A DNA stretch of 64,000 nucleotides from positions 79,501 to 143,500 of the forward strand of contig CACLYO010000001.1 in the NCBI GenBank assembly GCA_902611145.1, given 5' to 3'. Position numbers and translations under genes: made by a program. Below the pieces are notes generated by a model, which had not been told where the DNA came from, ran no database searches, and worked only from the letters and a program-made list of their open reading frames with translations. Shown here one piece after another: positions 33,998 to 62,201 of the stretch. The DNA is from an uncultured Pelagibacteraceae bacterium (GTDB taxonomy: Bacteria > Pseudomonadota > Alphaproteobacteria > Pelagibacterales > Pelagibacteraceae). The stretch's first letter is position 1; each line of letters opens with the position of its first letter.

Positions 33998-34978
33998 TTA
34001 TTTATTAGTTTTTCTTAGCTTTTTTAACACTATGTTTAAATCTTGTGGCAAATTTGAGGTAAATTCTAATTTTCTTCCGGTAATAGGATGAACAAAGCCT
34101 ATAGTTTTTGCATGCAAAAACTGTCTATCAAGATGTAATATAGATTTTTCTAAATCAGAATCTATATTTTTAAATTTTTTAAATTTTTTTTTGTATTTTT
34201 TGTCACCTAAAATATTGTTGCCTTTATAACTCATGTGAACTCTAATTTGATGAGTTCTGCCTGTTTCAAGTTTGCACTCAACAAAACTAAATGTTGGAGT
34301 TTTTTCATTTTCAAAAACTTCAAGTGTTTTGTAATTTGTAATTGCTTTTTTTCCTCTTGATATTCCAACTTCCATTAACTGTCTATTTTTAGAACTTCTA
34401 GTAATCAATGTTTCAATTTTTCCAGATTGTGGTTTTAGTTTGCCCCATATTAATGCTTGATAAGTTCTATTGATTGAATGTTGCTTAAATTGTTTTGATA
34501 AATTTTCATGTGTAAGATTATTTTTTGCTATTACAACTAATCCCGATGTATCTTTATCTATTCTATGAACTATTCCAGGTCTTACTTCGTCGCCAATATT
34601 TGATAAATTTTTACTATCATAATACATTAATGCATTAACCAAAGTTTTATCATACTCCCCAGCACCTGGATGCATTGATATTTTAGATGGCTTGTTCACA
34701 ATTAATAAATTTTCATCCTCATATACAATATCCAGTTTTAAGTTATAGGGTTTTAAAAAAACCTTTTTTGCTTTTGGTATTTCAATCTCAATATTATCAT
34801 TTGTATTGATTTTTTTTGCAGGATTATCAATAGTTTTATTATTTATTTTTAATTTTTTATTTATAATTAAATTTTTGATCCTAGTTCTGCTTATATCTTT
34901 TTTGTTAATTGATATAAATTGATCTACTCTTTGACCGTTTTCATAATCTTTAACAATTAAATTAATGATATTTTTCAT
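33998..34978 (-). CDS. rluD: 23S rRNA pseudouridine synthase, RluA family
   Basis: 326 residues: an N-terminal S4 RNA-binding domain (residues 15-65, RVDQFISINKKDISRTRIKNLI) and the catalytic domain with GIVHRIDKDTSGL, containing the essential Asp of the HRLDKxTSG motif. ALIWGKLKPQSGKIET and RTHQIRVHM follow. The S4 domain and length favour RluD (23S positions 1911/1915/1917) over RluA or RluC, but assignment within the family is not certain. Confidence 0.85.
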   Translation of the reverse strand: MKNIINLIVKDYENGQRVDQFISINKKDISRTRIKNLIINKKLKINNKTIDNPAKKINTNDNIEIEIPKAKKVFLKPYNLKLDIVYEDENLLIVNKPSKISMHPGAGEYDKTLVNALMYYDSKNLSNIGDEVRPGIVHRIDKDTSGLVVIAKNNLTHENLSKQFKQHSINRTYQALIWGKLKPQSGKIETLITRSSKNRQLMEVGISRGKKAITNYKTLEVFENEKTPTFSFVECKLETGRTHQIRVHMSYKGNNILGDKKYKKKFKKFKNIDSDLEKSILHLDRQFLHAKTIGFVHPITGRKLEFTSNLPQDLNIVLKKLRKTNK

Positions 34979-57927: not shown

Positions 57928-59826
57928 CTATCCTTTTAAAATATTATTTTTAATTAAATCTTCCTTTATTTCAACCAGTATAGCTGGATCATCAATTGTT
58001 GCTGGCATTTTATATTCTTCTTTATCAGCTATTTTTCTAACAGTTCCTCTTAAAATTTTTCCTGATCTTGTTTTTGGTAATCTTTTTACAACAATAGCAG
58101 TTTTAAAAGCTGCAACTGGGCCAACTTTATCTCTGACCATTTGAATACATTCTTTAGATATTGTTTCATTGTCCTTTTTAACACCAGCTTTGAGTGCTAT
58201 TAAACCAATTGGCAATTGTCCTTTTAATTTATCAGCAATACCAATAACAGCACATTCTGCAACTGACTGATGTTCTGACAAAACTTCTTCAATAGCTCCA
58301 GTAGACAATCTGTGTCCTGCAACATTAATTATATCATCTGTTCTAGACATGATCCAAACATAACCATCATCATCTATGTGCCCCGCATCGTAGGTTTGGT
58401 AATAACCCTCATAGTTTGACATGTATGTTTTTTTGTATCTTTCATCAGCATTCCATAGTGTTGGAAAAGTTCCTGGAGGCAAAGGTAGTTTAACTACAAT
58501 ATCACCCATTTCATTTGGTTTAGCTAAAGTTTGATCTGGTTTAATAATTTTTACATCATAACCAGGAACAGCTTTGCAAGCTGAACCATATTTGGTTTTC
58601 ATCATTTCTATTCCTGTGCAATTTGAACTAATTGCCCAGCTAGTTTCAGTTTGCCACCAATGATCAATTACAGGAACTTTAAGTAAAGACTCCGCCCACT
58701 TAATTGTATCTGGATCTGCTCTTTCACCTGCGAGGAATAATGACTCAAATTTGCTAAGATCATATTTTGTAAAAAATTTTCCTTCGGGATCTTCTTTTTT
58801 AATTGCTCTAAATGCTGTTGGGGCAGTAAAAAGAGATTTTACTTTATAGTCTGATATTATTTTCCAGAATGCACCTGCATCGGGTGTGCCAACAGGTTTT
58901 CCTTCAAATAAAACTGTAGTACATCCTTTGAACAATGGAGCATAAACAATATATGAGTGACCTACTATCCAACCAATATCACTAGCAGACCACCAAACAT
59001 CATCAATATCAATATTGTAAATATTTTTCATTGTCCATTTAAGAGCAACTATATGTCCCCCCACATCCCTAACAATACCTTTTGGGATTCCTGTGGTACC
59101 TGAGGTATATAAGATATAAGAAAATTCATTTGAATTAATTTCTATACAATCAACATCGTTTGCATTAGACAATGATTCATCCCAGCTAATTTCTTTTGGA
59201 GGATTCAGCTTAACTTCATTACCAGATCTTTGAAAAAGTATAACCTTTTCTGGTTTGTGCAAAGCAAGCTGAAGTGCTTTATCTACTAATGGTTTATACT
59301 CTACTGTTCTTCCTGGTTCGAATCCACATGATGCAGTGATTAAAAGTTTTGCTTTACTATCATCAATTCTGCTTGCAAGTTCATTTGATGCAAAGCCTCC
59401 AAATACTACAGAATGTATCGCTCCAATTCTTCCACATGCAAGCATCGCAATTACAGCCTCAGGTATCATAGGCATGTATATAATAACTCGATCTCCTTTG
59501 TTTATGCCTTGATTTTTTAGAGCACCTGCAAATTTTGATACTTTGTCTCTTAGTTCTTTATAAGTGAATTTTTTTTTATTACCTGTGATAGGACTATCGT
59601 ATATTAGAGCAAGCTTCTCGCCTCTACCCTCATCTATATGGAGGTCTAAAGCATTATAACAAGTGTTTGTCACACCATCGGAAAACCATTTGTAAAATGG
59701 TGGCTTATCTTTTTTTAATATTTGTGTTGGTTTTTTAAACCAAAATATATCTTCAGATATTTTTTGCCAAAACTCTTCAGGTTTTTTAATTGATTCTTCG
59801 TATATTTTCTCAAAATCATTTTTCAT
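57928..59826 (-). CDS. prpE: Propionyl-CoA synthetase-like acyl-CoA synthetase
   Basis: 632 residues from ATG 59826; a longer frame to 59871 adds basic residues with no family match. The sequence follows PrpE closely: FYKWFSDGVTNTCYNALD near 44-61, YMPMIPEAVIAMLACGRIGAIHSVVFGGFASNE in several adjoining motifs, YTSGTTGIPKG (AMP-binding loop), DIGWIVGHSYIVYAPL, INVAGHRLSTGAIEE, and the catalytic Lys in PKTRSGKIL. It forms acyl-CoA from propionate or acetate. It is divergent from proteorhodopsin, with 205 bases between. Acetate use (Acs) cannot be excluded. Confidence 0.87.
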   Translation of the reverse strand: MKNDFEKIYEESIKKPEEFWQKISEDIFWFKKPTQILKKDKPPFYKWFSDGVTNTCYNALDLHIDEGRGEKLALIYDSPITGNKKKFTYKELRDKVSKFAGALKNQGINKGDRVIIYMPMIPEAVIAMLACGRIGAIHSVVFGGFASNELASRIDDSKAKLLITASCGFEPGRTVEYKPLVDKALQLALHKPEKVILFQRSGNEVKLNPPKEISWDESLSNANDVDCIEINSNEFSYILYTSGTTGIPKGIVRDVGGHIVALKWTMKNIYNIDIDDVWWSASDIGWIVGHSYIVYAPLFKGCTTVLFEGKPVGTPDAGAFWKIISDYKVKSLFTAPTAFRAIKKEDPEGKFFTKYDLSKFESLFLAGERADPDTIKWAESLLKVPVIDHWWQTETSWAISSNCTGIEMMKTKYGSACKAVPGYDVKIIKPDQTLAKPNEMGDIVVKLPLPPGTFPTLWNADERYKKTYMSNYEGYYQTYDAGHIDDDGYVWIMSRTDDIINVAGHRLSTGAIEEVLSEHQSVAECAVIGIADKLKGQLPIGLIALKAGVKKDNETISKECIQMVRDKVGPVAAFKTAIVVKRLPKTRSGKILRGTVRKIADKEEYKMPATIDDPAILVEIKEDLIKNNILKG

Positions 59827-59942
59827 AAATTCGACTCGATTTTTTTGCTTTTTTCGGCTTTGAAGGATCATTAAATTTCAAAAAGTAAGTAAAATCAATA
59901 CTTATTAAGCGAAAAAAACTCTTCAATTAACTATCTATATTT

Positions 59943-60025
59943 GGTAATTAACCGCTTAACTTAGCAGTAGGTAATTACTGCTATAGTTTATATAAACTAT
60001 AAAAGAGACTAACTTAAAGAGGGAG
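59943..60025 (+). promoter_or_regulatory. Proteorhodopsin control region: hairpin, palindrome, RBS
   Basis: TAGCAGTA (59962-59969) pairs with TACTGCTA (59976-59983) around a six-base loop. Sharing base 59983, an 18-base perfect palindrome ATAGTTTATATAAACTAT fills 59983-60000. GGTAATTA is repeated at 59943-59950 and 59970-59977. A purine-rich ribosome-binding site GAGGGAG (60019-60025) lies six bases before the ATG. A TATAAA at 59998-60003 could be a -10, but no matching -35 is evident. The elements are seen; function as operator or RNA structure is inference. Confidence 0.55.
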
Positions 60026-60031
60026 TTTTTT

Positions 60032-60796
60032 ATGAGAACACTAAAAACGTTAGCTTTAGCTTTATTTGCTCTTATTGGAGTAACTACAGCGGCTAATGCA
60101 GCAACAGCCTTTTTAGCTACGGATGATTTCGTTGGTATTTCGTTCTGGCTAATATCAATGGGTATGTTAGCGGCTACAGCGTTTTTCTTTATGGAGCAAG
60201 CCAATGTAGGCACTCAGTGGAGAAAATCAGTAAATGTAGCTGGACTTGTAACTGGTATTGCATTTATCCATTACATGTATATGAGAGCAGTTTGGGTTGA
60301 AACAGGAGATACACCAACTGTTTACAGATACATTGACTGGTTAATAACTGTACCACTTCAGTTAATAGAATTTTATTTAATTCTAGCGGCAGTCAAGAAA
60401 GTTCCAACTGGAATATTCTGGAGAATCTTAATGGGTTCTTTAGTAATGTTAGTAGGTGGATATTGTGGAGAAGCTGGATTTATCGCGCCAATGCTTGGTT
60501 TCATTATCGGTATGGCAGGATGGATTTACATTCTTTATGAAATCTTTTCAGGTGAGGCAGGTAAAACTGTTGCGAGATCTGGAAACAAATCACTTGCAAC
60601 AGCGTTTGGTGCTTTAAGAATGATCGTTACAGTTGGTTGGGCAATTTACCCACTAGGTTATGTATTTGGTTACTTAACAGGTGGAATAGATGCTAACTCA
60701 CTTAACGTAATTTACAACTTAGCAGACTTTGTTAATAAGATCGCATTCGGTGTTATAATTTGGTCTTGCGCAGTTGCTAACTCTTCTAGAAGATAA
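60032..60796 (+). CDS. Proteorhodopsin (light-driven proton pump, blue-tuned by sequence)
   Basis: 254-residue retinal protein with a signal peptide (cleavage near ANA-AT) and seven helices. Residues sit at a constant +5 offset from reference proteorhodopsin: His80 (H75), proton acceptor Asp102 (D97), spectral tuning Gln110 (position 105), proton donor Glu113 (E108), Schiff-base Lys236 (K231). Asp/Glu at acceptor and donor indicate a proton pump; Gln at 105 is the blue-absorbing form. It has an unusually good ribosome-binding site and its own terminator. No retinal-forming blh or carotenoid gene is in the window. Confidence 0.98.
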   Translation: MRTLKTLALALFALIGVTTAANAATAFLATDDFVGISFWLISMGMLAATAFFFMEQANVGTQWRKSVNVAGLVTGIAFIHYMYMRAVWVETGDTPTVYRYIDWLITVPLQLIEFYLILAAVKKVPTGIFWRILMGSLVMLVGGYCGEAGFIAPMLGFIIGMAGWIYILYEIFSGEAGKTVARSGNKSLATAFGALRMIVTVGWAIYPLGYVFGYLTGGIDANSLNVIYNLADFVNKIAFGVIIWSCAVANSSRR

Positions 60797-60820
60797 TTTT
60801 AAAAGAGTTTAAAATAATTA

Positions 60821-62201
<1,381 letters not shown>

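Follow-up and report, generated by a model that had tools for sequence, protein, structure and literature searches.

A predicted 5′ leader RNA with a covarying hairpin precedes the proteorhodopsin gene in SAR11 bacteria

The 74 nt upstream of the proteorhodopsin gene in the DNA analyzed here, a 64,000-nt stretch (the window) from an uncultured Pelagibacteraceae bacterium, very probably form the 5′ leader RNA of this gene and contain a hairpin (hairpin 1) close to the predicted 5′ end. The gene is an open reading frame of 254 amino acids on the plus strand (60032..60796; Pfam PF01036, E = 1.3e-49), and the closest relatives of the window are titled Pelagibacteraceae or Pelagibacterales, which identifies a SAR11 genome. 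A proteorhodopsin match is present in 158 of 201 genomes of the same genus, the window's own genome counted. An acetyl-CoA-synthetase-like gene is oriented divergently from the proteorhodopsin reading frame. On the 3′ side, a pattern scan picked out a putative intrinsic terminator, a stem of 13 pairs with a T run (60820..60851, plus strand), which suggests a proteorhodopsin transcript of about 0.9 kb. This stem scores on both strands and lies 24 nt ahead of the start codon of a 2Fe-2S ferredoxin gene, which is followed by a gene for a pyridine nucleotide-disulphide oxidoreductase. Some SAR11 genomes encode a second rhodopsin with 43-44% identity (G225:C22, G220:C3, G285:C4), perhaps the flotillin-associated paralog named in a 2023 paper.

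The initial annotation had drawn attention to the symmetry of this region. The 8-bp hairpin (arms TAGCAGTA and TACTGCTA at 59962-59969 and 59976-59983), the 18-bp palindrome ATAGTTTATATAAACTAT at 59983-60000 with base 59983 common to the hairpin, the direct repeat of GGTAATTA (copies at 59943 and 59970, spacing 27), and the strong ribosome site GAGGGAG ahead of the ATG at 60032 are all present as described, and the palindrome is in full a perfect one of 20 bp (59982-60001). The view that such symmetry is unique in the window was right for a palindrome touching a hairpin, which occurs only once (mean of 0.1 and maximum of 1 in 40 dinucleotide shuffles), but not for the palindrome itself, as a second perfect 20-bp palindrome, AGTTTTTGCATGCAAAAACT, lies at 34103-34122. 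The latter is located inside a minus-strand open reading frame (33998-34978) that, judged by eye, looks like a pseudouridine synthase gene, and it is probably due to chance. Overall, the window has 3 palindromes of at least 18 bp (shuffle mean, 1.5), 9 of at least 16 bp (4.5), and 77 hairpins of at least 8 pairs (43.5), and the fold of the window leader has a z score of -3.1, with 2 of 200 shuffles equally good. Because these values are only moderately unusual, the chance argument from the window sequence alone is modest; the decisive evidence for the leader element is comparative and does not come from the single sequence.

For the comparison, 200 leaders were gathered from those matches that most resemble the window's protein (whole-genome searches gave at most 30 loci each, and a contig collection gave 80) and from 60 hand-picked places; they represent a non-random sample of SAR11. 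Before identical leaders were merged, the 200 included the window's own leader and, where two collections hold the same genome, that genome twice. Without one short leader (L094), 163 were distinct over 100 nt, and the palindrome arms GTTTA..TAAAC are kept in 158 of these. The five leaders lacking them (L009, L053, L121, L163, and L193) have palindromes of only 6 bp in four cases and a 14-bp palindrome, TTTTAAATTTAAAA, in one case, identified from its sequence as L193. Of the 158 leaders, 157 gave a parsed hairpin 1, and the one without a parsed loop was left out.

The transcript of the window should start near A59958 (predicted start 59958..59958, plus strand), behind an extended -10 element and upstream of both hairpins described below. 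The resulting leader RNA (59958..60031, plus strand) is predicted from its fold, from homology, and from a covariance model, R1, which matches it with an E value of 2e-11 in the window's genome. The homology is with HTCC7211, onto which in-situ 5′ ends were mapped by Hou et al. 2016 (PMC5069720); bacteriorhodopsin is the 10th among the start sites and is listed in Table 2 of that paper at 529616-530457. In genome G235, taken as HTCC7211 from matching coordinates, the rhodopsin reading frame ends exactly at 530457, and position 529616 is an A that follows TATTTA, an extended -10, by 7 nt and precedes the ATG by 74 nt. The listed 3′ end coincides with the end of the reading frame in 15 of 17 genes checked from Table 2, and in the two exceptions, atpE and acpP, a neighboring reading frame had been picked by the script. 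The listed 5′ end lies 0-34 nt before an ATG in 15 of the 16 genes other than the pump gene (acpP by eye). Since the 3′ ends match reading frames and the 5′ ends are close to ATGs, the 5′ column of the table behaves as mapped starts. In these 17 highly transcribed HTCC7211 genes, the listed leaders measure 0-34 nt in 15 cases and 74 nt for proteorhodopsin; for atpE (ATP synthase subunit c; L229, G235:C1:434300-435200) the listed in-situ 5′ end is inside the reading frame of the upstream gene, well ahead of where atpE begins.

The arrangement in the window matches that in HTCC7211, with a -10 followed by an A and again 74 nt to the ATG. Its predicted extended -10, TG-G-TAATTA (59942..59950, plus strand; hexamer TAATTA at 59945-59950), was recognized by the pattern TTTGNTA and by homology with HTCC7211. 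A putative -35-like element, CTTCAA (59921..59926, plus strand), lies 18 nt ahead of the -10, is by eye kept in relatives, and resembles the -35 regions ahead of HTCC7211 5′ ends. TTTGNTA is found upstream of hairpin 1 in 136 of the 157 leaders, and all but one of the 21 leaders without it are from other genera. At the predicted start, no more than 77 of the 136 leaders have an A and 49 have a C, so that the true start may be about one base away. The GGTAATTA repeat was rejected as a functional pair and is regarded as a coincidence, because the first copy is part of the -10 and the second, which lies in hairpin 1, is absent from close relatives such as L002 and L036.

Folded by itself, hairpin 1 (59962..59983, plus strand) forms 9 pairs, 59962-59970 with 59975-59983, around a GUAA loop. 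When the complete leader is folded, 7 pairs remain (59964-59970 with 59975-59981), and bases 59982-59983 go to the palindrome. Hairpin 1 begins 4 nt after A59958 and adjoins the palindrome, hairpin 2. Among the 157 leaders hairpin 1 has a median of 9 pairs and a mean z score of -3.24 against shuffles, with 85% of the leaders below -2. Between 9 and 13 nt separate the -10 from the first pair in 135 of 136 leaders; with the start, which is published for HTCC7211 only, set at the 8th nt after the -10, the hairpin would lie 2-6 nt from the 5′ end in 135 of 136. At its other side, the last pair ends 0-2 nt before the A of TAGTTTA in 141 of the 157 leaders. The letters of the hairpin are hypervariable, with 103 distinct 11-nt 3′ ends among the 157 leaders, and the pairing is kept. 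When the arms were swapped between these leaders, the mean energy changed from -9.64 kcal/mol for cognate arms to -3.80 kcal/mol for all swapped pairs and to -3.20 kcal/mol for diverged swaps (at least 5 of 10 differences, n = 4656), of which 0.4% reached the cognate median.

For pair counts the leaders were split by the register of hairpin 1, and the counts cover the two largest equal-length groups, with 31 and 32 distinct sequences. This grouping used each sequence's own predicted fold and thus leans toward pairing, to which the swap test and the wobble control are less exposed. In the 31-sequence alignment, 87.1% of the cells were paired versus 62.6% in shuffles, and the covariation score was 0.746 versus 0.257, a score reached by none of 500 shuffles. 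Two-sided changes were found in 89 cells, which count related sequences and not independent events, versus 28.2 in shuffles; the number of pairs showing them, 8 of 11, was ordinary (7.4 in shuffles, 211 of 500 reaching 8). The covariation signal was lost when the partner was slid by 1-3 columns, and RNAalifold predicted the stem of hairpin 1 unaided on this set, with 9 pairs of which 8 had two-sided changes. The 32-sequence alignment showed two-sided changes in 8 of 8 pairs (3.5 in shuffles), and none of 500 shuffles reached any of the five measures; in a full-leader alignment of 31 sequences, two-sided changes were again present in 8 of 8 pairs. On the alignment of all 63 leaders RNAalifold missed hairpin 1 because loop lengths shift its stem, and it predicted only hairpin 2, without two-sided changes.

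The type of mismatch distinguishes the strands. In the 31- and 32-sequence groups, respectively, there were 51 and 23 G-T cells (shuffle means, 65.2 and 42.1), 3 and 0 A-C cells (24.8 and 14.6), and 17 and 11 other mismatches (79.4 and 23.2), where the counts leave out the outermost pair of the 31-sequence group and the controls shuffle the 3′ letters. A-C was purged like the other mismatches and G-U much less, which in total left 74 G-U cells versus 3 A-C cells. The sense fold was more stable than the antisense fold in 144 of the 157 leaders, compared to 55% of 2936 swapped constructs. Because G-U is tolerated and A-C is purged, we assign hairpin 1 to sense-strand RNA, and the comparison shows a predicted pairing in this RNA that is maintained whatever its letters.

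Hairpin 2 (59982..60001, plus strand) is the perfect 20-bp palindrome TATAGTTTATATAAACTATA, recognized by fold, palindrome scan, and leader comparison. It is nearly invariant in the 63 aligned leaders and shows almost no covariation, with six pairs invariant in the full-leader alignment of 31 sequences. Its mean predicted pair probability is 0.65 over 146 leaders and 0.49 in the window. A search expression with fixed arms and any 2-6 A/T letters between them matched 153 distinct leaders, those in which the arms are intact, and the center was self-complementary in all 153, taking one of five forms (AATT in 81 leaders, TA in 61, TATA in 8, ATAT in 2, and TTAA in 1), and the spacing of GTTTA and TAAAC among relatives is 2 or 4 nt. 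Directly outside the arms, the first outer pair is A-T in 142 of the 153 leaders, G-T in 9, T-A in 1, T-T in 1, and A-C in none; the change from A-T to G-T but never to A-C is again a sign of the mRNA strand. One position farther out, the second outer pair is T-A in 146 leaders, C-A in 4, A-A in 2, G-A in 1, and never G-T, which gives no support for RNA pairing at this position. By comparison of the leaders, the predicted hairpin 2 is shown to be maintained as a perfect A/U-rich palindrome.

The letters of the leader differ between SAR11 clades, and some clades are without the element. From other genera, 27 loci were collected, 22 of them with a recognized ribosome site (L199, L201, L206, L214, and L223 were left out; L263 and L264 are outside the analysis, and L207 and L208 carry an identical leader). 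In 14 of the 22 leaders there is a perfect palindrome of 16-20 bp just before the ribosome site, in each case containing TTTGTTTAAACAAA and usually behind a separate GC-containing hairpin; in 8 the palindrome has 12 bp or less. Many of the loci L207-L226 show the same layout in different letters, with a GC-containing hairpin and then a palindrome such as TTTTTGTTTAAACAAAAA before the ribosome site. In family f2, a palindrome of 14-20 bp (TAATTTTATAAAATTA and variants) is present in 17 of 18 leaders. In these 17 of the 18 loci (L245-L262), perfect A/T palindromes (TAATTTTATAAAATTA, TAATTTATAAATTA, TAATTTTTAAAAATTA) adjoin the ribosome site just before AGGGGA. In several of them a -10 resembling GATAAT or AATAAT stands some 6-7 nt ahead of the palindrome, and there the f2 proteorhodopsin transcript may begin with the hairpin. 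Two findings speak against the structured-leader reading: the f2 leaders fold no better than shuffles (z scores from -0.75 to +1.83), and the element is missing or degenerate in genera g3, g6, g10, and g13, with few loci each, and in all but one of the g5 loci. When the R1 model was applied to 14 genomes, it found the proteorhodopsin leader in 12 with E values from 3.6e-21 to 0.002, other matches having E values of 0.036 and worse, and it gave no convincing match in the g9 and f2 genomes among the 150 candidates scored per genome of about 1600-2600 at first look. Among six proteorhodopsin relatives from other alphaproteobacterial families, no ATG was found in two; in two others, palindromes of 12 bp lie no farther than about 20 nt from the chosen ATG, and L286 carries a palindrome of 18 bp at 97 nt upstream.

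As to function, we lean slightly toward a leader that, with its pair of hairpins, serves as a 5′ stabilizer of a constitutive proteorhodopsin mRNA; for the stabilizing function taken by itself, we consider the chances to be even. The RNA would start near 59958 with about 4 unpaired nt, followed by hairpin 1 and directly by hairpin 2, probably stacked on it, and then by an A-rich stretch and the strong ribosome site, possibly within a weak third hairpin. The two hairpins would shield the 5′ end from pyrophosphate removal and from RNase E entry, and the constitutive message would thereby be long-lived and well translated, as with the ompA 5′ leader of Escherichia coli. The ompA leader and other 5′-terminal stem-loops stabilize mRNA. 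Like the SAR11 leader, the ompA leader belongs to an abundant membrane-protein mRNA and has hairpins at the 5′ end with a strong ribosome site after them, and, as in the ompA host, RNase E and RppH are present in the SAR11 lineage (models for RNase E/G and RppH passed their cut-offs in all 7 SAR11 genomes searched). The ompA leader is longer, and it differs from the SAR11 leader, in which hairpin 2 is a perfect A/U-rich palindrome and hairpin 1 lies 2-6 nt from the predicted 5′ end. The likeness is one of layout, and stabilization in SAR11 is what we infer from it. In E. coli, the hairpin limit for protection of the 5′ end is 2-4 unpaired nt, and given about 4 (2-6) unpaired 5′ nt in SAR11, a block of RppH may be only partial. 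Because the letters are hypervariable while shape and position are fixed, a physical barrier is favored over a ligand pocket. The low predicted pair probability and near lack of covariation of hairpin 2, together with the leaders that have no intact arms, weigh against the stabilizer. According to reviews, 5′ hairpins and strong ribosome sites act as stabilizers, and RppH is hindered by a hairpin at the 5′ end; the B. subtilis enzyme requires two or more unpaired 5′ nt, with a preference for at least three, and some mRNAs are not stabilized by a sequestered 5′ end. In Steindler et al. 2011 (PMC3090418), proteorhodopsin of Ca. P. ubique is described as constitutive, present in relatively large amounts, and unchanged by light, which suits a stabilizer better than a switch.

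Alternatively, the hairpins or a weak hairpin 3 might hold the ribosome site in place or cover part of it, or an RNA-binding protein might act at the conserved hairpin 2, so that translation follows the energy state. We regard such translational control as possible but rather unlikely. It would account for the region of the ribosome-binding site GAGGGAG (60019..60025, plus strand), which, like hairpin 2, is nearly invariant in the 63 aligned leaders including that of the window. The candidate hairpin 3 (60003..60031, plus strand) would pair 60003-60010 (AAGAGACT) with 60024-60031 (AGTTTTTT) and hold the ribosome site mostly in its loop. Its pairing is kept in relatives with few two-sided changes; 75 of 81 distinct 3′ segments allow a helix of 7-8 pairs, a count that leans toward pairing because the script sought the best helix, and in genera g2 and g4 its base has G-C in place of A-U. 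The mean predicted unpaired probability of GGGAG over 146 leaders is 0.43. Translational control is less easily reconciled with the lack of conserved letters in hairpin 1, with constitutive expression unchanged by light (PMC3090418), and with the predicted openness of the ribosome site, which in the window leader stays at 0.40 from 4 to 37°C; the flat value also led us to reject an RNA thermometer for this leader. A conserved alternative fold was not seen in an unsystematic look.

The initial annotation had proposed either an operator or a structured 5′ leader. The predicted start upstream of both hairpins, the covariation of hairpin 1, and its strand-specific wobble favor the leader, and the alignment of leaders yielded compensatory changes in hairpin 1 and no conserved half-sites at fixed spacing. 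A DNA operator, in which a dimeric regulator would bind the palindrome and either repress or assist transcription, is improbable. It would explain why the center is self-complementary in 153 of 153 leaders, which a 4-nt RNA loop would not need, and it fits the C-A, A-A, and G-A variants without G-T at the second outer pair. However, the arm spacing varies by 2 bp, the palindrome is spelled differently in other clades (TTTTTGTTTAAACAAAAA, TAATTTTATAAAATTA), hairpin 1 lacks conserved letters and by the wobble test is RNA, and the first outer pair changed from A-T to G-T nine times and never to A-C, as RNA would. Moreover, G000 and 12 of 13 other genomes each carry a single exact copy of the palindrome motif, in every case a short way ahead of the proteorhodopsin match, and G201 (genus g2) has none; no second copy exists in the 14 genomes searched with no mismatches allowed, and thus no regulon for the exact motif. 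A reversed control pattern had one match in G000 and in 7 of the 13 genomes, which puts the chance expectation at about one hit in each genome; the point of the search is that there are no extra copies and that the copy found is always at this leader.

Somewhat less probable still is the idea that two proteorhodopsin mRNAs pair loop to loop via hairpin 2 and dimerize, or that the palindrome doubles as an RNA hairpin and a DNA dyad. If true, hairpin 2 would be an mRNA dimerization site coupling message abundance to decay or membrane localization of the light pump; we know of no bacterial example of control by such mRNA dimerization. We give little credit to a riboswitch or transcription attenuator, which would likewise place a structured leader ahead of one gene and for which a pattern scan scores hairpin 1 as terminator-like, but hairpin 1 has no conserved core, no U run follows it (TAGTTTA does in all 63 sequences of the two alignments), and Rfam gave only six sub-threshold matches at 59700-60300 of the window and none at the gathering score in 7 loci. 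Least credible is a functionless by-product of template switching in replication, which in principle explains perfect palindromes and coordinated arm changes but predicts neither the strand-specific tolerance of G-U over A-C nor the fixed placement directly behind the promoter (135 of 136 leaders) nor the persistence across genera.

Cis elements of the same group of organisms had also been found by covariation by Meyer et al. 2009 (PMC2704228), whose abstract and one section describe SAR11 structured RNAs at rpsB, rpsL, and ffh, a methionine-associated riboswitch, and four weaker motifs. As in the proteorhodopsin leader, one of the weaker motifs combines a stem that never changes with a second, variable stem in series; the motifs described there are at other genes, however, and a word search found no "rhodopsin" in the main text of that paper or in the text searched of the 104-motif paper. 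The leader of the SAR11 glcB glycine riboswitch (PMC5069720) is also a long structured leader in a short-leader organism, but it is a ligand-binding RNA, whereas proteorhodopsin hairpin 1 is without conserved letters. The element was not found described in the largely open articles, taken without their supplements, on proteorhodopsin leaders, structured RNAs, and start sites of SAR11/Pelagibacter. It seems to be a previously undescribed leader element.

The SAR11 proteorhodopsin gene ranks among the most common genes for light harvesting in the ocean. The leader provides a concrete, portable RNA element for reporters, and the covariance model may serve to look for it in metatranscriptomes. A covarying leader in a streamlined genome suggests direct selection on the amount or lifetime of the proteorhodopsin message, and the leader probably protects or tunes an abundant message.
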